IMG/VR virus record: IMGVR_UViG_3300050120_000115
Coordinates: 24,954-88,953 of that record
DNA length: 64,000 nucleotides
Source: a virus
Reading direction: 5' to 3' (one strand)
Position numbers and translations under genes: made by a program. The notes under the pieces are model-generated. The model made no database searches and was not told where the DNA came from. It saw only the letters and a list, made by a program, of their open reading frames with translations. This document shows positions 10,845 through 55,496 of this stretch, piece after piece (position 1 is the stretch's first letter; every line of letters begins with the position of its first letter).

Positions 10845-13535
10845 GTGCTGACTCTTAGCAGCGGACAAACATTACAAGGATCAGCAGTTACCCCATCGGT
10901 GGTAACTTACACCCTTACGGGGTCTTCTTACGTCCCAGGGTCATCTACATATGAGATCCTTGGTCAGGGACAATTGTCTAGTTCCGTAGCCGCCATGTTG
11001 TCTCCTTCAAGTGACTCTGCTCTTATCAGTCACATCCTTCTTGCCAACTCTTCTGCTTCATCCGTTTACATTAGTCTTTATGTAGACGGTACGGCTGGCT
11101 CCAACTTAATTGTTAACCTAAACATTCCCGCTAATGGTTCGGCCACATTCGACCGTGATGGTTGGAAGGTTTATGATTCTAACGGTAGTCTTCAGACTGT
11201 TGGATCTCCAGGTGCTTCTGGACCTACCGGACCTAGTGGTCCTGCAGGTTCATCAGGAGCCTCGGGACCAACCGGACCGGCAGGGGCAACTGGACCATCA
11301 GGCGGTCCCACTGGAGCTACCGGACCGACTGGGGTTACGGGACCGGCAGGAGGTACTGGAAGTACCGGAGGTACTGGTGCCGCTGGATCTGCAGGATCTG
11401 TTGGAGTAACTGGACCCACTGGACCAGCTGGGGTTACTGGGCCGACAGGAGGGACTGGCGGCACGGGAGGAATTGGTGGTATAGGCGTCACTGGAGTAAC
11501 TGGAGCAGGCGTCACTGGAGCGACCGGCCCTACTGGACCTACCGGTGTTACTGGACCTACAGGACCGACCGGAATTACGGGACCAGGATATTCTGGTGTA
11601 ACTTCTACCACATCGTTGCTTATAGCTACCGGTTCTACTACGTGGACGGTAGCGGCCACTCAGGCATATCAAGTCGGCCAGCGCGTTCGCGTGGCATATA
11701 CGACCACTCCTTCAGACTACATGGAAGGAGTAATCACCGCTCTGGTCGCCAACACATCTATAACAGTTTCAGTTGACACGACATCTGGATCTGGAACCTT
11801 TGCATCATGGTCATTCTCTGTAGCAGGACTTGTGGGCGTTACGGGTCCCACCGGACCTACCGGACCCACGGGTGTTACGGGGGGGACGGGCGGAACTGGA
11901 GGTACTGGGGCCGTGGGTGGAGTCGGGGCCACTGGCGTCACGGGAGTGACTGGGGCTGGGGTTACCGGTGTCACCGGAGCAACGGGACCTACTGGTCCTA
12001 CCGGTGTAACGGGAACAACGGGTCCTCAGGGGAACTTCGGGGGAGACGCATTTAATTGGACGTTTTCAACGGCAACAACCTCAACGCCTGCAGCCGGTGT
12101 ATTGAACTTCAACAATGCCACCGTATCTTCGGTCACTAATATTTATGTTAACCAGGCAGACTATCCAACTACTAATGTTTCAACGTGGCTAGCTGCCATG
12201 CGTTCCGGTGGGGTTGTAAAGGTTTACAACAACTCTACTCCAACCCAATTCGCGATATTCACCCTAACCGGCACCCCCTCGCTAACTGGTTCTGTATATA
12301 CCATATCTGTTACTTACGTGACAAACGCCGGTACTATTGACACAACCGCAGGCGACACTGTTCTTAATTACGATATCCCTGGATCAACGGGGGCAACAGG
12401 ACCTACTGGAGTTACTGGTGTTACGGGAGTTACTGGAGGAACAGGTGGAACAGGCGCAGCCGGTGCGGTTGGAGTAACTGGTCCAACCGGAGTAACCGGG
12501 GTAACAGGTGCCACTGGCGCTGGGGCAAGTTCGGTGGGAACAGTTAGAAATACTTCATCCCTACCTGCAACCGCAGCGGCAAATGAGTATACGGTTCTTA
12601 CAGGATCTACCGCTTCAACTACCCTGACGCTTCCAGCATCACCCGCAGGCGGAACTATAAATGCCGTCTTAAACAATGCTACCGTTAGCGCTACCCTGGC
12701 TCCAGGTGCTGGAAACTCTTTAATCATTCTTGGTGGATCGACAGCAAGCATCGTCATACCTCCAAATGGTTATTACGAGATAGTCTACGTTACCTCTACA
12801 ACGACTTGGTATGTTGTTACTGGTAGCCAAGAACGTGAACAGTTGCGCATAGGCTCAACGGCATCCTCAGCGACACCGGCTATCGATACAGATAACTATG
12901 ACGTGTACGAAATAACAGCTCTTGCTGCTACCATTACCGGCTTCACCATGACCGGTACGCCAGCTGATAACGACAAGTTGATGATAAGAATTACCGACAA
13001 CGCCACGGCTCGTGGAATCACTTGGGGTACCTCATTTGAAGCATCCCCAGGGTGTGCGCTGCCAACTACAACTGTAATATCCACTATGTTGACCTGTGGA
13101 TTCATCTACAACGGTTCAACCTCAAAGTGGAGAATTGTAGCAACAGATGCCTCTGTTGGTTCTCCACAGATAAATCAACTAGGTATAAATACTACTGCTC
13201 CTAGTGTAGCTGGAACGGTGGCCACGTCGCCCCCAACTTCGGCAACCATACAAACAGCGTTGGGTAATCTGACCTTAGGAACGGCGTATCATAATACGCT
13301 TTCTTACGATGTTAAAATGACAGTATTCATCGCAGTAACTGCCGACACCTCAATGGTTCTTAAGGATGGGGTTGGCACAACGAATACGCCGACTCAAACT
13401 ACTATAATTACCGGGACTACCGCAACTGGAATTATACCAGTTAATGTAAGAATTCCAACTGGATATTACAGATTACTTTCTATTTCTGGAACCGTAACCG
13501 ACGCTATCGTTGGACAATATTTGGAGGCCGCATAA
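10845..13535 (+). CDS. collagen-like tail fibre protein
   Basis: An 896-residue fibre protein with three Gly-X-Y blocks, roughly 11205-11600, 11833-12045 and 12380-12530, mostly GPT, GVT and GAT triplets. They would form collagen-type triple helices. Between and after them lie beta-rich domains of 80-110 residues, and the C-terminal 300 residues probably form a head domain that binds the host surface. The start is GTG with GGAGG eight bases upstream. Long open frames on the opposite strand here only reflect the repeat composition. Confidence 0.85.
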
Positions 13536-39180: not shown

Positions 39181-39209
39181 TTGACTTCAGAAGTTTTTCC
39201 TGCTATACT
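39181..39209 (+). promoter_or_regulatory. promoter for SNF2-like helicase, leaderless
   Basis: TTGACT 39181-39186, 17-base spacer ending CCTGC, TATACT 39204-39209. The helicase ATG is at 39217, eight bases after the -10 box, so the mRNA should begin at or next to the start codon. Confidence 0.85.
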
Positions 39210-39216
39210 GTCCATC

Positions 39217-41289
39217 ATGCACCAGGTTCCTCAACGTCATCTCGTCTGGCTAGACGGAGAAAAGATCAGGCTGCTCTTCAAACCACCGTTCAATAAGTTC
39301 GATGATTTTCTCAAAGAGGTGAGAGCGGTTACTGGTAGGTCGTGGGATGGTCAGCATAACATCTTTCCCCTAAGTTCTTCTGCAGAGGTACGTTCTTTGG
39401 TGGAGGCTTGGGAGATACCCGTCTCCCCCGAGGTCGAACTTTTAGAGGGATGGAATACCTACGTCGGTATGGTCAAGCGTGGACCCTACAACGTCTTCAT
39501 GGATCATAAGTCAGTGGTTATAACCTTTGATTATAACTCTACACTTATATCAGTAGTCCACCACTACATCCCTGGCGTGAACTGGCGGGGTTCCAATGGT
39601 ACTTACCGCGCTCCGGAGACGAGCGTTAATGAGGCCATCAAGTTTGCTCACGAGTTTGACCTCACGGTGGACCCGGAGATCGAAGCAAGAATACAGAAGG
39701 CAGTAGATGACGCAAAGGAATTGTATGAGCACTCAACTTTACTTGACTGGGATGAGTTCGAGATACCCGGACTCATACTTCCCCTTCGACCATATCAGCG
39801 TGCTGCTGTTGCGTATATGCAACGGGTTAGGCGCTGCATTTTAGCCGATCAACCAGGACTCGGTAAAAGCGTTTCGTCAATATCCACGGTAATCCTTGAT
39901 AAGTCGTTGCCGGTTGTGGTAGTCTGTAAGAACAGGTTGAAGGAGACTCTGCGCGAGGATTTCCTTAAGTTCTACCCCAATCTCAACATCACAATTTTGA
40001 ACGGGGGGAAACGACAAGAGATACCGAAGTCGGACGTGGTGATAGTTAACTACGACATAGCCAAGCAGCGACTAGAGGACATCAAAGAACATGGGTACAA
40101 ATCTCTCATCGTTGACGAGTCTCACTACATCAAGAACGGTAAGAAGCGATCCACCTGTACTGGGTGCGGGCACAAGGTCAACTCTAACGCAGTGAACTGC
40201 AAGGGGTGCGGTAAGACCGGAATCAAGGTTAACACTCGTTGGGATGTGCGTCGTACGGATGCGGTGATGCGTCTCTCAATGTCCCTCCCCCCCGAGGCGC
40301 TGGTGCTTTTACTTACAGGGACCCCAATCGGAATCCGCCCCGGTGAACTAATCCGTCAGTTGGAGTGCATCGACCGTCTAGATTTGTTCGGGGGAGAGTG
40401 GAGGTTCAGGAAAAGGTACTGTCCCGACAACAAGACAGCACTCAATCTCCAAGAGCTGAACACCAAACTGCGCGAGAACTGCTTTGTTCGCCGTAAGACG
40501 AGTGAGGTATATGGGCAACTCCCTCCCATTCAGAATTCCATCCAACGTATGGTTCTCACCGATGAGCAGATGAAGCGTTATAAGGAGATCGAAGCCGACA
40601 TCGTGGAGTACCTCGCGGAGAAGGCACGTCAAAAGGCCATCGACATGGGAGAAGATCACGATGCCGCTTACTGGAGCAAGCGTAACGCTGTCGAACGGGC
40701 TGAGGCTTTGGTCCGACTTAACACCCTACGTGGAGCTATTGTCGAGTTAAAATACGAGGCTGCCTTAGACTGGCTAGATACGTTCCTGGAAACAGGTGAC
40801 GAGCCGATACTCGTCTTTGCCAACCGAATCAAAATAGTGGAAGGGGTGTACAATCGATACATGGAGATGGCAGTTAAAGTCAGAGGAGACCTCACGAATG
40901 AGCAGGTACTGGAGAATGTCCACGTCTTCCAGGAACAGGATTGGTGTCGTATGCTTGTGGCTAACACGTCCTCTGCGAAAGAGGGTCTTACGCTCACTAA
41001 AGCATCGCATGTGGCCTTTTTAGAACTGGAGTGGAATCCAACAGACCATTCACAGGCTGTGAGCAGGGTTTACGGGCGCACAAACGATCCTCATGGAGCA
41101 GTTGCATACTATCTTCTAGCTCCTGGGACCGTGGATTACGATATGTATGCACTACTGCAAGAGCGTCAAAAAATTGTGGACGCGGTAACGGACGGTATTG
41201 AACTGGACGAGAAGCAACTAAGTATCGAGGACCAACTTATTAAGATGCTCGAAGAAAGAGGAGGATACAATGAGGCACTACGCAATTAG
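39217..41289 (+). CDS. SNF2-family helicase/ATPase
   Basis: A 690-residue SF2 ATPase of SNF2/SMARCAL1 type. The first 185 residues are two small HARP-like modules. LPLRPYQRAAVAYMQ begins the motor, then DQPGLGKS (motif I), DESHYIK (II), LLLTGTPIG (III), and in lobe 2 NTSSAKEGLTLTKASHV (V) and QAVSRVYGRTND (VI). A zinc finger (CTGCGHKVNSNAVNCKGCG) is inserted after motif II. It may remodel forks or displace host proteins. The start is set by the promoter and ATG 39217. Confidence 0.88.
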   Translation: MHQVPQRHLVWLDGEKIRLLFKPPFNKFDDFLKEVRAVTGRSWDGQHNIFPLSSSAEVRSLVEAWEIPVSPEVELLEGWNTYVGMVKRGPYNVFMDHKSVVITFDYNSTLISVVHHYIPGVNWRGSNGTYRAPETSVNEAIKFAHEFDLTVDPEIEARIQKAVDDAKELYEHSTLLDWDEFEIPGLILPLRPYQRAAVAYMQRVRRCILADQPGLGKSVSSISTVILDKSLPVVVVCKNRLKETLREDFLKFYPNLNITILNGGKRQEIPKSDVVIVNYDIAKQRLEDIKEHGYKSLIVDESHYIKNGKKRSTCTGCGHKVNSNAVNCKGCGKTGIKVNTRWDVRRTDAVMRLSMSLPPEALVLLLTGTPIGIRPGELIRQLECIDRLDLFGGEWRFRKRYCPDNKTALNLQELNTKLRENCFVRRKTSEVYGQLPPIQNSIQRMVLTDEQMKRYKEIEADIVEYLAEKARQKAIDMGEDHDAAYWSKRNAVERAEALVRLNTLRGAIVELKYEAALDWLDTFLETGDEPILVFANRIKIVEGVYNRYMEMAVKVRGDLTNEQVLENVHVFQEQDWCRMLVANTSSAKEGLTLTKASHVAFLELEWNPTDHSQAVSRVYGRTNDPHGAVAYYLLAPGTVDYDMYALLQERQKIVDAVTDGIELDEKQLSIEDQLIKMLEERGGYNEALRN

Positions 41290-41422
41290 CCGCGCCATCG
41301 TGAAGCACGTTGCACCAGGACTGAAGTACCCGTCGTCAGCTATCGCTCGGAAGGCGGTGCGAACTGCCCTATTTTCCGGTCCTGCCGCGTACAAGAAGTC
41401 CCCTCCCGCGCGCAAGCAGTAG
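41270..41422 (+). CDS. small basic protein
   Basis: A 50-residue protein (starts MRHYAISRAIVKHVAPGLKY), strongly basic with an SPPARKQ end. AGAGGAGG six bases before the ATG supports it, and it overlaps the helicase end by 20 bases. Could bind DNA or RNA. The following 134 bases to 41557 hold no clear gene or promoter. Confidence 0.65.
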   Translation: MRHYAISRAIVKHVAPGLKYPSSAIARKAVRTALFSGPAAYKKSPPARKQ

Positions 41423-41556
41423 ACCCCCTCCTAGGATCGACGGAGAGGCCCCTAGATTGGCTCAGTTCGTCACGAAAAGTCGGAGTAGTATCCCAAGACC
41501 TTGAGAACGTTTCAGGGCGTCATAGGTCAATATAGAGTCCTAAGAAAGAGTTGTAG

Positions 41557-42516
41557 ATGAGTAAAGAGGTTGAGGTTCGCGCCTATAGATTTTCCATTCT
41601 GCCCGAGTGGATTTTATCAAAAGACATTAGCCATGCTGCCATCAGGCTTTTTTGTGTCCTTAATAGATGGCTAGGAGAAAACGATTACGTTTGGCCGTCC
41701 AGGAAAACAATAGCAGAGAGAATGGGGTGCTCTGTGAATACCGTAGACAGGGCTATAGATGAGCTTGAAAAAATAGGGGCCATAAGTGTAGAGCACCGAT
41801 CAGATAGCAACGGAGCCCCTACTAGTTCCCTTTTCTATCTATGGCCCGCTACTTTTGGGGGTACCCCCATGGGTGGGGAGACCCTCCCTGGGTGGGGAGA
41901 CCGTACCCCCATGGGTGGGGAGACCGTACCCCCAAAACAGGTATACAATAGAGATACAATTAAAAGAGAAACAATTAAAGAGAATTCTTCTACTCCCACC
42001 CCTCCGGGGAGTGAGAAGTGGACGGACGAAGTTAAAGAACTCACCTCCCTTCTCTGCCATTGGAATGTCGAGAACGGATACAAAGCGTTTACCCTAGGTC
42101 CTAAGCAGTGGGCTGACATGGATAAGTTGTTGAGGATTGACAAGCGCTCGCCGGATGAAGTTAGATCTATCATCGAATGGTGTCAGAAGGATGCGTTTTG
42201 GAACGGAAATATCCGTAGTACTTTGAAGTTGCGTAAGCAGTTCGATACCTTGGTAGGGAGGATGCGCCAGCAGGGGTGTCTCCCTCCAATCCCCTCAGAG
42301 ATCTCCCTTTCCCCCGACCAAAAAAATGTTGCGCTTATTTTCGACTGCTATGACCAGGGAGGAGAGTGGTTCGACTTCACGACTGAGGAATTCTTACTTG
42401 ACAATCCCGTTTCCTTCGGCTATAATCGTCCTAGGGATGCTCGGGGAAATATGGTTGACGCGGACGGGAAACCGTACAAGATGACCGCCCAGGGCCAGAG
42501 AGTGAGGTTGGAATAG
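41557..42516 (+). CDS. HTH replication initiator-like protein
   Basis: A 319-residue protein. Residues 10-95 form a winged helix of the kind in phage replication initiators (AAIRLFCVLNRWLGENDYVW, SRKTIAERMGCSVNTVDRAI). A low-complexity hinge (about 100-135) is encoded by tandem DNA repeats. A helical C-terminal domain follows (KQWADMDKLLRIDKRSPDEV) that may load a helicase. The repeats plus AT-rich stretch inside the gene resemble the arrangement of the lambda O gene. The next gene's GTG overlaps its stop. Confidence 0.7.
   Translation: MSKEVEVRAYRFSILPEWILSKDISHAAIRLFCVLNRWLGENDYVWPSRKTIAERMGCSVNTVDRAIDELEKIGAISVEHRSDSNGAPTSSLFYLWPATFGGTPMGGETLPGWGDRTPMGGETVPPKQVYNRDTIKRETIKENSSTPTPPGSEKWTDEVKELTSLLCHWNVENGYKAFTLGPKQWADMDKLLRIDKRSPDEVRSIIEWCQKDAFWNGNIRSTLKLRKQFDTLVGRMRQQGCLPPIPSEISLSPDQKNVALIFDCYDQGGEWFDFTTEEFLLDNPVSFGYNRPRDARGNMVDADGKPYKMTAQGQRVRLE
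41861..41933 (+). repeat. iteron-like tandem repeats in initiator gene
   Basis: Three direct repeats sharing GGGTGGGGAGACC: units 41861-41883 and 41903-41925 are identical 23-mers beginning GTACCCCCAT. Unit 41884-41902 is a shorter variant, and a partial GTACCCCC follows to 41933. An A/T-rich stretch of about 55 bases comes next. This is the layout of a phage origin with initiator-binding iterons next to an unwinding region. Confidence 0.7.
41934..41990. other. AT-rich stretch beside iterons, candidate unwinding element
   Basis: About 57 bases with long A runs and few G or C (AAAACAGGTATACAATAGAG, then ATTAAAAGAGAAACAATTAA). It abuts the iterons inside the initiator gene. The site could be where the helix opens at an origin. 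Confidence 0.5.
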
Positions 42517-45891: not shown

Positions 45892-46008
45892 ATGACCATT
45901 GAAGAATTAGGGAATCTATTAGAGGATCTCCTGAATGAACTAAGAAATCTTAACGAGAATCTCATGGTGCTTAACTTTGAAAACGCTCGCGAACGTGGTA
46001 ACGTTTAG
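45892..46008 (+). CDS. 38-residue microprotein
   Basis: A short acidic helical protein (starts MTIEELGNLLEDLLNELRNL). AAAGGAC is upstream, and the stop overlaps the helicase GTG as TAGTG, so it is probably a translated coupler or small partner of the helicase. Confidence 0.6.
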   Translation: MTIEELGNLLEDLLNELRNLNENLMVLNFENARERGNV

Positions 46009-48356
46009 TGATTAACCTTTACGACATACCAACCGAAGAGGCCCTAATAGGGGCGATGCTGTTGCGCCGCGAAGCAGTTATAGAGGCAATGGACATCGTT
46101 GAACCCACTGATTTCTATCTTCCTTTCCATGCTTCCGTCTTCCGCACTATCGAAGAATTGTTAAGTGAAGGTATTGTTATTGACTACACAACAATAACCT
46201 CTAAGGTCGGGGGAGACGACACTGTAATACGACTATCCACCATGCAGATGAACGCCCCTAGCGCTAGCACCAATGCTGTCATTTCCTACGCTCGCATAGT
46301 GTATGACAAGTCCATGGCCCGCAAAGTATACCAACAGCTGGAAGAGGCACGTGGAAAGTTGATCGCGGGAGATGACCCTTACGAAACGGTTGACGATCTT
46401 GACAAGCAACTAGGTACTGTAGGACATTCTCATGGTGACGAGTTAGAGTCAGTGACCCTCGAAGAACTCGAAGCATCTATGGACCTGACTCAGGATGTGG
46501 TTATACCTGGTATGCTCAACCGTGGTTGGCGTACTATCATCGTAGGATCAGAGGGGAGCGGTAAGGCCCTAGACATTGACACGCCATTGCTAACCACCAC
46601 TGGGTGGAAGACCATGGGCACTGTTGTTACCGGTGATATTGTTTTTGGCGAAGATGGTGAGCAGACAGAAATATTGGCAGTTACGGAACCGTTTATTGGT
46701 GATTGCTATGAACTGGTATTTAGTGATGGATCTAAAATAGTCGCTGACGCTAACCATCTTTGGAAAACGGAAACCCTTAAGTCCAGGGAGTCTAGTGCTT
46801 ATCAACGGAGACGACCGGAGGGGTTTAATGATTGGAGGACTCAGTTGCACAAGAGGAAAGAATTTCCTTCTATCAAAACGACTAAAGATATTTTTGATAC
46901 CATAATGGCCAGGAAGGGTCATGCAGTCAACCATTCTGTCGAGGTGTGTGGTCCGCTGCAGTTGCCCGACGCTGATCTCCCTCTGGACCCATATGTTCTT
47001 GGCGTATGGCTGGGTGATGGAACATCTAAAGAACCACATATAACATCCATGGACGATGAGATTATAGAGGGCGTTGTTAGCGCAGGATTCCCCGTTAAAA
47101 GTCTTGATCGTAAACCAAATAATAGGGCTGCAACATATAGATTTGGCAAGGAGTTAACCCTACGCTTACGAATGTCTGGCGTAATTGGAAGTCAATATAA
47201 GAGACTTGATACTGGGCACAAGCATATTCCAGAGCAGTATAAGTTCGCTTCTTTTGAACAACGCCTCGCCCTTCTCCAGGGTCTTATGGATACTGACGGT
47301 ACCGTATCCGGTGGCGGCGAAAAGAAGGGAAGAGGATACGGAGCCTCTAACTGTGTGTTTAGTGTGGTAGACAGAACTTTAGCCTATGATGTTTTAGAGT
47401 TGGCCATAGGGTTGGGTATTAAAGCAAGCATCAAAGAGGGGGACGCCATGCTATACGGAAGGATTATTAGTAAGGTTTATGATGTTATATTCCAGACTGA
47501 CCTTCCAGTATGCAGACTAAAAAGAAAACTTGAACGCCTTCATCCTCTGAAGACTTATCGTGCCAAGCTTCGTTACATTAAAGAATGCCATCCAGTCGAT
47601 CCTAGGATGGTTCGCTGTATTCAAGTAGACAGAGAAGATGGAATGTTCTTAGCTGGACGCACTCTTATACCTACTCACAATTCGGTTCTGCTTCGCACTA
47701 TTGGCATCTCAGCGTCTCAGGGGCTGCACCCTTTTTCTCATCGTCCCATTCCCCCTGTCCGAGTTTTGGTAGTTGACCTTGAGAACCCCAAGGAAGCTAT
47801 TATTGAGACTGGTTCTAAACTGATGCAGTACGTCAAGACATTCTCACCAGACTATGACCCGACAAGGTTCAAAGTCTTTCGCAGGCCGGGAGGGATAGAC
47901 CTAAGAAAGAGCAAGGACAAGGCCGATCTACGAAGAGAGATTGACGCACACCAACCTGACCTCGTTTGCATCGGACCAGTCATCAAGATGTACCAGCGAA
48001 AGGGTGGGGAGTCTTACGAAGAGTCCGCCGATGCTGCGATGTACGAACTAGACCAGCTACGAGTTCGCTACGGTTTCGCCCTTATGCTAGAGCACCATGC
48101 CGCTAAGGGTCACCAGGGGTCGCGAGAGATGACACCTTTCGGCTCGCAACGTTGGATGAGTTGGCCGGAGGCGGGCAAGAGTCTGTACAGTGACAAGAAC
48201 GATCCCACTATTGTGAGGGTGGACACTTTTCGTGGCGACCGTCTTCAGGGAATCGCTTGGCCTAATAGAATTACGAGAGACCGTGAATGGATAGTGTCAG
48301 GAATTTGGGATGACGGAATCCCCGAGGGAATAGGACAGCCGGGGAGAAGACCATGA
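46008..48356 (+). CDS. DnaB-like replicative helicase interrupted by an intein
   Basis: A 782-residue precursor. Residues 1-140 match the DnaB N-terminal domain (PTEEALIGAMLLRREAVIEA, DFYLPFHASVFRTIEELLSE). Residues 170-186 lead into Walker A GSEGSGK, which is split by a 372-residue intein and continues with SVLLRT. Further on come VRVLVVDLENPKEAI (Walker B side) and LMLEHHAAKGHQGSREMTPF (motif 3/4 region). Splicing leaves 410 residues, similar to short AAA_25/RepA-type helicases. GTG start. It probably unwinds the fork with the initiator at 41.6 kb. Confidence 0.88.
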   Translation: MINLYDIPTEEALIGAMLLRREAVIEAMDIVEPTDFYLPFHASVFRTIEELLSEGIVIDYTTITSKVGGDDTVIRLSTMQMNAPSASTNAVISYARIVYDKSMARKVYQQLEEARGKLIAGDDPYETVDDLDKQLGTVGHSHGDELESVTLEELEASMDLTQDVVIPGMLNRGWRTIIVGSEGSGKALDIDTPLLTTTGWKTMGTVVTGDIVFGEDGEQTEILAVTEPFIGDCYELVFSDGSKIVADANHLWKTETLKSRESSAYQRRRPEGFNDWRTQLHKRKEFPSIKTTKDIFDTIMARKGHAVNHSVEVCGPLQLPDADLPLDPYVLGVWLGDGTSKEPHITSMDDEIIEGVVSAGFPVKSLDRKPNNRAATYRFGKELTLRLRMSGVIGSQYKRLDTGHKHIPEQYKFASFEQRLALLQGLMDTDGTVSGGGEKKGRGYGASNCVFSVVDRTLAYDVLELAIGLGIKASIKEGDAMLYGRIISKVYDVIFQTDLPVCRLKRKLERLHPLKTYRAKLRYIKECHPVDPRMVRCIQVDREDGMFLAGRTLIPTHNSVLLRTIGISASQGLHPFSHRPIPPVRVLVVDLENPKEAIIETGSKLMQYVKTFSPDYDPTRFKVFRRPGGIDLRKSKDKADLRREIDAHQPDLVCIGPVIKMYQRKGGESYEESADAAMYELDQLRVRYGFALMLEHHAAKGHQGSREMTPFGSQRWMSWPEAGKSLYSDKNDPTIVRVDTFRGDRLQGIAWPNRITRDREWIVSGIWDDGIPEGIGQPGRRP
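46566..47681 (+). mobile_element. class 3-type intein with LAGLIDADG endonuclease
   Basis: Starts with Ala (ALDIDTPLLTTTGWKTM), not Cys or Ser, and ends TLIPTHN before extein Ser. HLW in block B, Cys in VRCIQV (block F) and Thr in PTHN form the W-C-T set of class 3 inteins. Homing endonuclease motifs VLGVWLGDGT and LLQGLMDTDGTV are intact. It is inserted in the helicase P-loop between Lys and Ser. No copy of the dispersed motif is seen inside. Confidence 0.88.
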
Positions 48357-49966: not shown

Positions 49967-50107
49967 ATGCCATACAAAGACCCTGAACAAACAAAGCTTT
50001 ACTACAAAGATTATTACCAGCGTAACAAGGAACACCTGAAAGCCTACGGCATCGCCTACGGCAAGCGTAAACGCGCAGAAGCTAAGGTTGCTAAACATGG
50101 GGGCTAG
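49967..50107 (+). CDS. 46-residue basic protein next to nuclease
   Basis: Starts MPYKDPEQTKLYYKDYYQRN, a basic aromatic-rich segment like the N-terminal DNA-binding part of some phage nucleases. It overlaps the start of the GIY-YIG gene by 11 bases. It could be a DNA-binding helper, or the first piece of a gene now split. Confidence 0.6.
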   Translation: MPYKDPEQTKLYYKDYYQRNKEHLKAYGIAYGKRKRAEAKVAKHGG

Positions 50108-51248
50108 AAAACCCAATGTGGGGGTTAACGATCTCGCAACAATCAACCCCGAACTAGCGGCCCAAGCACACGGGTGGGACCCAACGACGCTAAGGATTAA
50201 CAGTATAGAGGTGGTCTTGTGGAAATGTGATAAAAATCATGTTTGGGAATCTACTGTCCATAATCGTACAGCTGGACATAATTGCCCGTATTGCTCGGGA
50301 CGCCGTGCTATTTCTGGCGAGAATGATTTAGCGACCATGCATCCAGATATAGCTGCGCAGGCGAACGGTTGGGACCCTACACAAATACTTCCCTATAGTA
50401 ACGTAAGAAAGCAGTGGCATTGCGATAAAGGTCACTTATGGTTAGCTAGTTCTAGTACAAGAGTATTCTGTAAATTGAATAGCGGCGGTAATGGGTGTCC
50501 TTATTGTAGTGGAAGATACGTGTTGACCGGGTTCAATGATTTGGCCACTCTGTACCCAGAGATTGCAGCAGAGGCCCATGGATGGGATGCTACGCTCACA
50601 TCGGGATATACCAATAAAAAACTAGATTGGATTTGTGGGAGTGGCCATGTATATTGCACCAGGGTCGGACATCGAACTTATTATGGGAGTGGATGTCCAT
50701 ACTGTAGTAATCAAAAAGTTCTTCCGGGTTTTAATGATCTTCTTACGGTTGATCCAGGTTTAGCTGCTCAGGTATATGAAGGAGATCCATCTATGGTTAC
50801 GGTATCTTCTGGAAAGAGATTTAAGTGGATATGTGGATATGGCCATATCTGGTCGTCTCGTGTCGCAGATAGAACTGCTGGCAAGGGATGTTCCGGGTGT
50901 GCTATTCGTGGTTTCAACACAGAAAAGCCTGGATATCTTTATTTATTACGCCACGATCTATGGGGAATGCTACAAATTGGGATCACCAATCTGCCTCAAA
51001 GGAGAATGAACAAGCACGCTGAACTAGGTTGGGAGATTGTAGAGATTAGGGGACCGATGAACGGTAATACCGTGCGAAGGGACGAGAAGGAAATTTTAAG
51101 GTTTCTTCACCGTAACGGTGCCGATGTCGGCAACGCAGGCATAGCCGGAAAGTTCGATGGCTACACAGAGTGTTGGGTAGAAGAAACTTACCCTGTCAAG
51201 TCACTTCAAGAACTCCTAAACGCTGTTGGGGAATTGGTTTCTGACTAG
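50097..51248 (+). CDS. treble-clef repeat GIY-YIG endonuclease
   Basis: A 383-residue protein. Four repeats of about 65 residues each carry NDLAT, then a CGxGH-like turn and CPYCSG (for example KCDKNHVWES, GHNCPYCSGR), matching the treble-clef repeats of DUF4379. The end (KPGYLYLLRHDLWGMLQIGI, QRRMNKHAELGW) fits GIY-YIG. Repeats likely give DNA specificity and the last domain cuts. Probably a homing-type element. Start ATG 50097 with GG-rich upstream; TTG 50088 is possible. Confidence 0.75.
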   Translation: MGARKPNVGVNDLATINPELAAQAHGWDPTTLRINSIEVVLWKCDKNHVWESTVHNRTAGHNCPYCSGRRAISGENDLATMHPDIAAQANGWDPTQILPYSNVRKQWHCDKGHLWLASSSTRVFCKLNSGGNGCPYCSGRYVLTGFNDLATLYPEIAAEAHGWDATLTSGYTNKKLDWICGSGHVYCTRVGHRTYYGSGCPYCSNQKVLPGFNDLLTVDPGLAAQVYEGDPSMVTVSSGKRFKWICGYGHIWSSRVADRTAGKGCSGCAIRGFNTEKPGYLYLLRHDLWGMLQIGITNLPQRRMNKHAELGWEIVEIRGPMNGNTVRRDEKEILRFLHRNGADVGNAGIAGKFDGYTECWVEETYPVKSLQELLNAVGELVSD

Positions 51249-53939: not shown

Positions 53940-54091
53940 TGTCATTAACTTTTGACGACATGGAACCCGAAGAGGATTACGGACTGAACGACTGGCTAGA
54001 GCAATTGCTGGAAGAGACCTGGCTCGAATTTTTAGAGGCGGGGGAAGAGGAAATGCACGAAGGAGAGGACGCGGATGAACTCGATGAATGA
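53939..54091 (+). CDS. 50-residue acidic protein
   Basis: Starts MSLTFDDMEPEEDYGLNDWL; nearly half of its residues are D or E, as in DNA-mimic or inhibitor proteins. TAGTG overlap with the previous gene and a 17-base overlap with the CCA gene. A G-oriented motif copy (54027-54046) reads EFLEAGEE. Confidence 0.6.
   Translation: MSLTFDDMEPEEDYGLNDWLEQLLEETWLEFLEAGEEEMHEGEDADELDE
54027..54046 (-). repeat. dispersed boundary motif, G-oriented copy
   Basis: AATTTTTAGAGGCGGGGGAA on the plus strand, the reverse complement of the C form. It is a clean example of the inverted orientation. Confidence 0.7.
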
Positions 54092-55496
54092 CCTAGAGAC
54101 AACTGTTATGAAGATTGTCCACTTGGTGGAGGACGTCTACGGTCACGCTATCATTGTCGGGGGTGCCGTTCGTGATTTCTACATGTCCGGCGAGGCAGAT
54201 ATTTTTGAGTCTGCTACGGATATTGACCTAGAGATTTTCGGACTTCCCTGGGGGGACGTGAAGTGTATCCTAGAGGCTCTGGAGCTTGAGTACGATGAGG
54301 TTGGCGAACAGTTCTGTGTCTTGAAGATCAAGGGTCTCCCCATCGACATCTCCATTCCCCGCCGCGAAAATGTAACTGGTGCTGGGCACAAGGACTTCGA
54401 CGTTATCGGTGACCCTCATATGTCATTCGAAGAGGCTGCTAAGCGTCGTGATTTCACGATGAACGCCATGGGCTGGAACCCGACGACTAAGACATTCATC
54501 GATCCATATCATGGACGTTTAGCCATAGAATTAGGTAGGATATTTCATGTATCTAATAAATTCAGTGAAGACCCATTGCGACCAATCCGTGGTGCAAGAT
54601 TCTCTGCTAGATTTGGAATGATACTTTCTGGGCCAACTGGTGAATTGTGTTTTATTATGAATGAATCGATTAGTGACTTACCATCTGAGCGTATATGGAT
54701 GGAATTCAGACGTGCTCTTCTAGAGTCATACAAACCATCAACCTTTTTTTGGGAACTTGATTTAATGAAATGGTTAGAAGGTATTTTCCCAGAAATATCA
54801 GCATTGCAGGGTGTAATTCAAGATCCTGAATGGCATCCAGAAGGGGATGTTTATGCACACACGATGCACGCACTAGATTACTGGGCGCAGAATCTTAAGA
54901 CCGGCAACGACGAGGACGATTTGATCGTGGCGCTCTCCGTCCTGTGTCACGACTTTGGCAAAGTTTCTACTACAGAGTTTGTGGACGGAAAAATTCGTGC
55001 GCGGGGACACGAGGAGGCTGGAGCAGAACCCACCAAGAACTTCTTGCACCGTATGCGTCAGTACGAACTCGCTAAGCAGGTAATCCCCATTGTTGAGAAC
55101 CATCTGTACCCGCTCCATGTGGACCAATTTTCCGCGCGGGGGATACGGAGACTGGCAACGAAGGTCCCACGACTTGACCTCCTAGCCATCGTCTCAAGAG
55201 CAGACGTAGCAGGTAGACCCCCTATCGACCCAGCAAACTCCTTTGCCAAGATTGACGAGTTCGAGCGTATGGTGAGTTTAGTAGATTCTCCAGTAGGCGG
55301 CCCTAAGCGTTTGGCGACTGGGGATATGCTCATTGATATGGGTCTCTCCCCCGGTCCAGAATTTAAGGTCATCTTAGACCACGCTTATGAGTTGCAGTTA
55401 GACGGGATCATTAGCGATTCAGAAGATGCTTTGGAAGTATTGCATCAGCTGTTAGACGGTCCCATGACCGCCTACGGACACAATTTAGAAGATTAG
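54075..55496 (+). CDS. cca: CCA-adding tRNA nucleotidyltransferase with HD domain
   Basis: A 473-residue class II tRNA nucleotidyltransferase that repairs or adds the 3' CCA. IIVGGAVRDFYMSG at 27-40, catalytic Asp49 and Asp51 in ATDIDLEIFG, FEEAAKRRDFTMNAMGWNP near 118-136, and EDPLRPIRGARFSARFG. An HD domain follows (AHTMHALDYW, LCHDFGKVS). Codons 140-265 (about 54490-54870) are markedly AT-rich (33-40% GC) against 53-60% on both sides, so the gene is mosaic. No tRNA gene is seen nearby. Confidence 0.92.
   Translation: MNSMNDLETTVMKIVHLVEDVYGHAIIVGGAVRDFYMSGEADIFESATDIDLEIFGLPWGDVKCILEALELEYDEVGEQFCVLKIKGLPIDISIPRRENVTGAGHKDFDVIGDPHMSFEEAAKRRDFTMNAMGWNPTTKTFIDPYHGRLAIELGRIFHVSNKFSEDPLRPIRGARFSARFGMILSGPTGELCFIMNESISDLPSERIWMEFRRALLESYKPSTFFWELDLMKWLEGIFPEISALQGVIQDPEWHPEGDVYAHTMHALDYWAQNLKTGNDEDDLIVALSVLCHDFGKVSTTEFVDGKIRARGHEEAGAEPTKNFLHRMRQYELAKQVIPIVENHLYPLHVDQFSARGIRRLATKVPRLDLLAIVSRADVAGRPPIDPANSFAKIDEFERMVSLVDSPVGGPKRLATGDMLIDMGLSPGPEFKVILDHAYELQLDGIISDSEDALEVLHQLLDGPMTAYGHNLED

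Follow-up and report, generated by a model that had tools for sequence, protein, structure and literature searches.

A probable replication origin within a phage initiator gene

We report that a 64,000-nucleotide stretch of phage DNA (hereafter the window; positions 24954-88953 of the 88,953-base virus record IMGVR_UViG_3300050120_000115) very probably carries a replication origin inside the phage's own initiator gene, at 41856-41980, in a lambda-O-like intragenic arrangement; we infer both the origin activity and the binding of the initiator from the evidence set out below. A probable origin is thereby assigned to an otherwise unplaced phage genome. An earlier sequence-only reading had proposed such a candidate, with the layout of the lambda origin within O, and the DNA-binding head, intragenic repeats, A+T-rich stretch and C-terminal domain described here support it.

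The initiator gene occupies 41557-42516 and encodes 319 aa (the gene, the features within it and the two helicase genes described below lie on the + strand). About 300 nt into it sits an array of direct repeats: a 23-bp unit A, GTACCCCCATGGGTGGGGAGACC, at 41861-41883; a 19-bp variant B, CTCCCTGGGTGGGGAGACC, read in another frame, at 41884-41902; a 23-bp unit C, identical to unit A, at 41903-41925; and a partial unit, GTACCCCC(A) / GTACCCCCA, at 41926-41934. An A+T-rich stretch (78%), a putative unwinding element that includes two imperfect 15-mers (41947-41961 and 41962-41976), follows at 41941-41980. The repeats are thus as the sequence-only reading had listed them, and its statement that they are followed at once by AT-rich DNA is right to within the six bases that separate the two. 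Two further details were absent from that reading, a perfect 14-bp palindrome, TGGGGGTACCCCCA, at the array's left end (41856-41869) and a 12-bp inverted repeat, TTTTGGGGGTAC / GTACCCCCAAAA, that bounds the array; inverted-repeat (dyad) character of the units themselves was not significant as scored. A search with an 18-base iteron pattern, allowing up to three mismatches, returned no second site elsewhere in the genome. Scanning IMG/VR for the exact iteron TACCCCCATGGGTGGGG returned none outside the record itself, and the unit is therefore private to it.

The initiator, recognized from the open reading frame list, its HTH_36 profile and PHROG matches, is predicted to combine a winged helix, a disordered hinge and a DnaD-like helical domain. 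The winged-helix head (aa 16-97; 41602-41847), delimited by AlphaFold2 and fold matches, is modeled with pLDDT above 90 over most of its length in the order H-H-H-H-E-E and matches HTH_36 (PF13730) at aa 23-74 with 50.1 bits against a gathering cutoff of 25. The hinge (aa 98-147; 41848-41997) has pLDDT below 50, and this predicted disorder covers exactly the part of the protein coded by the repeats and the A+T stretch, which do lie in the hinge, as previously claimed, and 3' of the HTH. The conserved C-terminal helical domain (about aa 155-240; 42019-42276) emerges from the C-terminal alignment, from AlphaFold2, which predicts it confidently over aa 157-240, and from an alignment to phrog_2514 that covers aa 160-239; it carries the motif W-C-Q-x-D-x-F-W-x-x-N-I-x-S and has no match in a Pfam profile search. 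The top PHROG families of the whole protein are phrog_391 ("replication initiation O-like," 2e-19) and phrog_2514 ("DnaD-like helicase loader," 2e-18). Fold comparison returned winged-helix proteins, including the DnaD N-terminal domain (2v79) and a plasmid initiator (4pt7), all with weak E-values, the top match being a DnaD model at a weak 5e-3. The lambda O Pfam family is absent among the 15 Pfam hits (E up to 0.1), "O-like" being a PHROG name only, and the RepA_N (PF06970) Pfam profile finds no match in the initiator. Judged by sequence, then, the initiator belongs to PF13730 and to neither the RepA_N nor the lambda O Pfam family.

The repeats exceed what chance or the encoded peptide would produce. 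In 64 kb of random sequence, about 7e-8 exact direct repeats of 23 bases would be expected within 70 bp of each other, and against synonymous codon shuffles that preserve the protein, the self-repeat score of the gene reaches p = 2/3000, with no 14-mer in three copies in any of the 3000 shuffles. The 14-base core lies in codon phases 1, 2 and 1; selection on the peptide therefore cannot explain the identity of the repeats, and the array is conserved as DNA. The gene shows two marks of an intragenic origin, direct repeats constrained at the DNA level and an adjoining A+T-rich element. When direct repeats are ranked over the 89-kb record, one locus alone outscores the array, a collagen-like coding repeat at 11.3 kb. 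The open reading frame that holds it (10845-13535) carries Gly-X-Y coding repeats at 11200-12520, the strongest direct repeats of the genome.

GC skew, which had been put forward as a possible check, lends no independent support. The cumulative minimum falls at 39287, 2.6 kb from the array and exactly at the point where the genes switch direction; for + strand genes, 4-fold-site skew is the same within error on either side of the array (-0.17 versus -0.15). After this control, we rejected skew as independent evidence of an origin.

Head and repeats are replaced together in the closest relatives

The region has no DNA-level relative among GenBank phages; its closest relatives are two IMG/VR contigs with the same gene context, L001 and L002. 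Both keep the SNF2-like helicase gene directly upstream of the initiator (39181-41289; Pfam, DNA comparison) at 72-76% DNA identity, and both keep the C-terminal part of the initiator at 70-76% DNA and 68-72% protein identity. What lies between is replaced: 41563-41985 in L001, where the replaced piece begins at the initiator's own start codon, and 41276-41985 in L002, where it begins 3' of the SNF2 gene. In the DNA comparison, homology with both contigs resumes at 41986, shortly 3' of the array and its A+T-rich neighbor. The replacement heads are another, distant PF13730 domain, 37% (L001) and 32% (L002) identical to the head here over about 43 residues and 59% identical to each other over 93 residues, and they come with different, GGGGGTGCAG-based repeats: L002 has GGGGGTGCAGTGGTTGCACC four times over, and the L001 units, GGGGGTGCAGATG, are shorter. 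Since the head is replaced and the repeats differ while the C-terminal domain is kept, the comparison shows that head and repeats were exchanged jointly between phages, as one block, which is expected if one reads the other. Repeats that vary while the protein stays conserved had been named as a sign against an origin; here the head changes too, and only the C-terminal domain is conserved. Three further relatives (L018, L019 and L063) also match HTH_36.

In L001, two open reading frames are inserted directly before the initiator, one apparently of the HNH type as judged by eye (L001:3559-4122) and one of the GIY-YIG type (PF01541; L001:4387-4875). The latter starts where homology to the window ends, at the border of the exchanged piece.

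Arrays and head swaps across the initiator family

We assembled a family by alignment of the C-terminal domain, which gave 123 loci in viral and bacterial contigs, and by three further scans, which gave 240 more; removal of near-duplicates left 217 genes. An array was called significant when the best direct repeat beat synonymous shuffles at p ≤ 0.01. Such arrays occur in 163 of the 217 family genes (75%; the other 25% have none), as against 4 of 319 unrelated control open reading frames from the same loci (1%), so that hinge repeats are a family trait. A first set of 105 gave 79 significant arrays, and all but one of these are located between head and C-terminal domain. Periods are concentrated around 10-12 and 21-24, near one or two helical turns, although many are divisible by three as well and some of the arrays consist of simple sequence. 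Directly 3' of long-period arrays, A+T content over 50 bases is 0.62, versus 0.58 for the gene (p = 3e-4). Of 81 arrays, only 9 had units of significant inverted-repeat character, and we dropped dyad symmetry as a family rule. The arrays of two plasmid relatives miss the p 0.01 cut.

Head types are mixed within the family: 13 of the 20 C-terminal clusters with at least two members hold at least two of them. Swap pairs gave 80 significant arrays, of which 65 are found on the head side of the breakpoint and 10 on the C-terminal side, with 5 spanning it; the pairs are not independent events, so that the count is descriptive. Several of those on the C-terminal side or across are simple A/G-rich repeats from Gram-positive relatives (clusters C0, C4 and C5). 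On inspection of the C-terminal-side calls, three pairs proved to be start-codon artefacts, with homology through most of the shorter gene, and the rest were simple A/G-rich arrays of cluster C0; the head-side calls for pMLP1 are based on an N-terminal repeat, not on a hinge array. Clean cases come from Companilactobacillus and Proteus. In the Companilactobacillus prophages, identity of the C-terminal DNA is at least about 94%, and the heads are unalignable, even coming from different Pfam families (Lin1244_N versus a weak HTH_36). In the pair L103/L112, common DNA (94% identical) runs from 369/378 onward and the arrays end at 366/379; in the Proteus pair L130/L131, it runs from 540/513 and the arrays end at about 491/509.

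Six Companilactobacillus loci (L103, L110, L112, L113, L114 and L139) provide a naturally occurring series of recent head-origin swaps. Many Gram-positive members (L089, L097, L114 and others) have coding repeats of simple A/G-rich sequence (AAAAAG, AAAGTAAAGTAAAT) near the C-terminal domain, and some A/G-rich arrays are common to both sides of head swaps (C0, C4 and C5); the C-terminal module may thus include a second element of its own.

Does a given head predict its repeats? Arrays resemble each other in 1% of pairs with unrelated heads, and similarity beyond the hinge peptide is found in 8%, 4% and 23% of pairs at 35-45%, 45-55% and 55-70% head identity, respectively. Related heads in different backgrounds share units more often than unrelated ones, an effect that is modest below 70% identity and weakly suggests that a head predicts its repeats. 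For the head studied here the effect is not significant: its nearest relative in another background, L063, has a GGGTGGGGA core in common with it that does not exceed the hinge-peptide expectation (p = 0.16). Some joint inheritance of an adjoining head and array is also expected from adjacency alone.

Proposed mechanism and alternative readings

We infer repeat binding, melting, helicase recruitment and origin activity in the following form. The N-terminal winged helix would bind the repeats of about 20-23 bp, probably as dimers, its targets being the three near-complete units and the partial or palindromic ends. The bound protein array would strain the adjoining A+T-rich stretch, which would open, and the C-terminal DnaD-like domain would recruit the replicative helicase, either the DnaB-like protein encoded at 46008-48356 or its loader. 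The hinge peptide encoded by the origin may be a flexible spacer only. Head, repeats and A+T stretch would then form one specificity cassette, exchanged by recombination just 3' of the array, with the C-terminal domain staying with the rest of the replication module.

Three other explanations of the array deserve consideration, all improbable in our judgment. The strongest of them, though itself unlikely, is an operator through which the protein represses or tunes its own gene or the replication operon, replication starting elsewhere, for instance near 39.2 kb. The head is a winged helix, as in many repressors, one relative (H7) is annotated in GenBank as a transcriptional repressor, and gene direction and skew flip near 39.2 kb, with the skew minimum 2.6 kb off the array. 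Against this, the array lies some 300 nt inside the gene, away from a promoter position, and a scan of 41250-42100 found no promoter-like site on the + strand. The profile matches of the C-terminal domain are to replication families, and proven intragenic origins have the same layout; the array could also serve both autoregulation and replication.

That a low-complexity linker gave rise to the repeats incidentally (through replication slippage, or a Pro/Gly-rich peptide), with no function as DNA, seems to us very unlikely: repeats are frequent in disordered linkers and some arrays in the family are simple sequence, but the copies here occupy more than one reading frame and surpass what synonymous shuffling yields, arrays mark 75% of family members as against 1% of control genes, and they travel with the head. 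Slightly less probable still is a recombination or packaging site, a hot spot for phage recombinases with the exchange as its side effect. RecA and RecE-like YqaJ exonuclease genes are nearby, breakpoints fall directly beside the array, and homing-type nucleases adjoin the cassette in L001; yet the breakpoints lie 3' of the arrays and not within them, and array sequences differ between swap partners, so the arrays do not supply the homology for exchange. An origin within the initiator gene remains our preferred reading.

Relation to known replication systems

The layout itself is already known, and by analogy the present case would work like the precedents of lambda, pSK41, pPR9 and the PLE satellites. 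In lambda, the N-terminal part of O binds DNA and the C-terminal part acts in recruitment through lambda P. The origin occupies a central position in the O gene and comprises iterons and an AT-rich region (PMC7466680); there as here, iterons in mid-gene are followed by an A+T-rich region. Unlike lambda O, the initiator described here has a PF13730 head, a C-terminal domain putatively of the DnaD-like loader type and no lambda O Pfam match, and its units of 19-23 bp differ in sequence.

Plasmids offer a second comparison. The pSK41 origin occupies the center of rep, and the protein can do without the peptide that it encodes (PMC5703833). The staphylococcal plasmid pPR9 derives from a pSK41-like plasmid in which a PF13730 head with its origin took the place of the RepA_N head and origin; the resulting rep region can drive replication and shows compatibility with pSK41 (PMC5703833). 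PF13730 head and origin moved there as a block of about 500 bp while the C-terminal domain was conserved (PMC5703833), in parallel with the joint replacement of head and repeats here; pPR9 differs in being a plasmid, not a phage, with one documented event and a C-terminal domain of the pSK41 type. The RepA_N initiators of pSK41 and PLE share with the arrangement proposed here a winged-helix head and head-origin shuffling and, for pSK41, an origin in rep; they differ in that PF06970 has no match here and that the PLE origin lies in a noncoding region outside repA (PMC7145576). For PLE satellites, shuffling of head and origin has been proposed as an escape from an origin-directed nuclease (PMC8263062), and nuclease genes are often found at the borders of exchange in phages (PMC10448857). 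A further parallel comes from gp40/gp42 of the Arthrobacter phages KellEzio and Kitkat, annotated as replication initiation O-like, which share a C-terminal domain (77% identical) and have unrelated heads and different hinge repeats; these are actinophages, unlike the phage studied here, and their repeats are weak and miss the p 0.01 cut. Within the literature searched, whose coverage was limited, we did not find this member, the scale of the pattern or the number of exchanges described.

We regard it as an evenly balanced proposition that head and intragenic array constitute an exchangeable cassette of replication specificity, general to a very large family of initiators from phages and prophages, each gene holding a winged helix and its own target, with exchange possibly selected by competition between origins or by origin-directed nucleases. 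Under this proposition, near-identical C-terminal domains carry unrelated heads because the cassettes have been swapped often enough. It provides a testable rule, namely that the DNA target is written in the initiator gene directly after the domain that reads it. If true, origins could be called automatically in phage and prophage genomes, it would explain which phages or plasmids can coexist, and sequence alone would yield hundreds of natural winged-helix-target recognition pairs from which to learn a recognition code. The family-wide pattern merits systematic follow-up.

Neighboring genes

Profile searches bore out the earlier placement of the initiator, a DnaB-like helicase and an SNF2-like helicase in one region. 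The DnaB-like replicative helicase gene (46008-48356; Pfam, PHROG) contains a LAGLIDADG intein: the DnaB N domain spans aa 5-100 of the product, LAGLIDADG aa 417-487, and the AAA_25 match picks up again at aa 568. Terminase families of PHROG are hit by the intein region with E down to 2e-38, presumably owing to related inteins within terminases. Farther along, 54075-55496 and 58939-59631 hold genes for a tRNA nucleotidyltransferase-like protein (polyA_pol head, HD) and an RNA ligase, a possible RNA repair pair; no tRNA genes were found in the 64-kb window. The 386-aa product of 50088-51248, with four DUF4379 treble-clef stretches, a weak C-terminal GIY-YIG/T5orf172 match and the PHROG annotation "endonuclease," is by these matches a probable homing-type nuclease.
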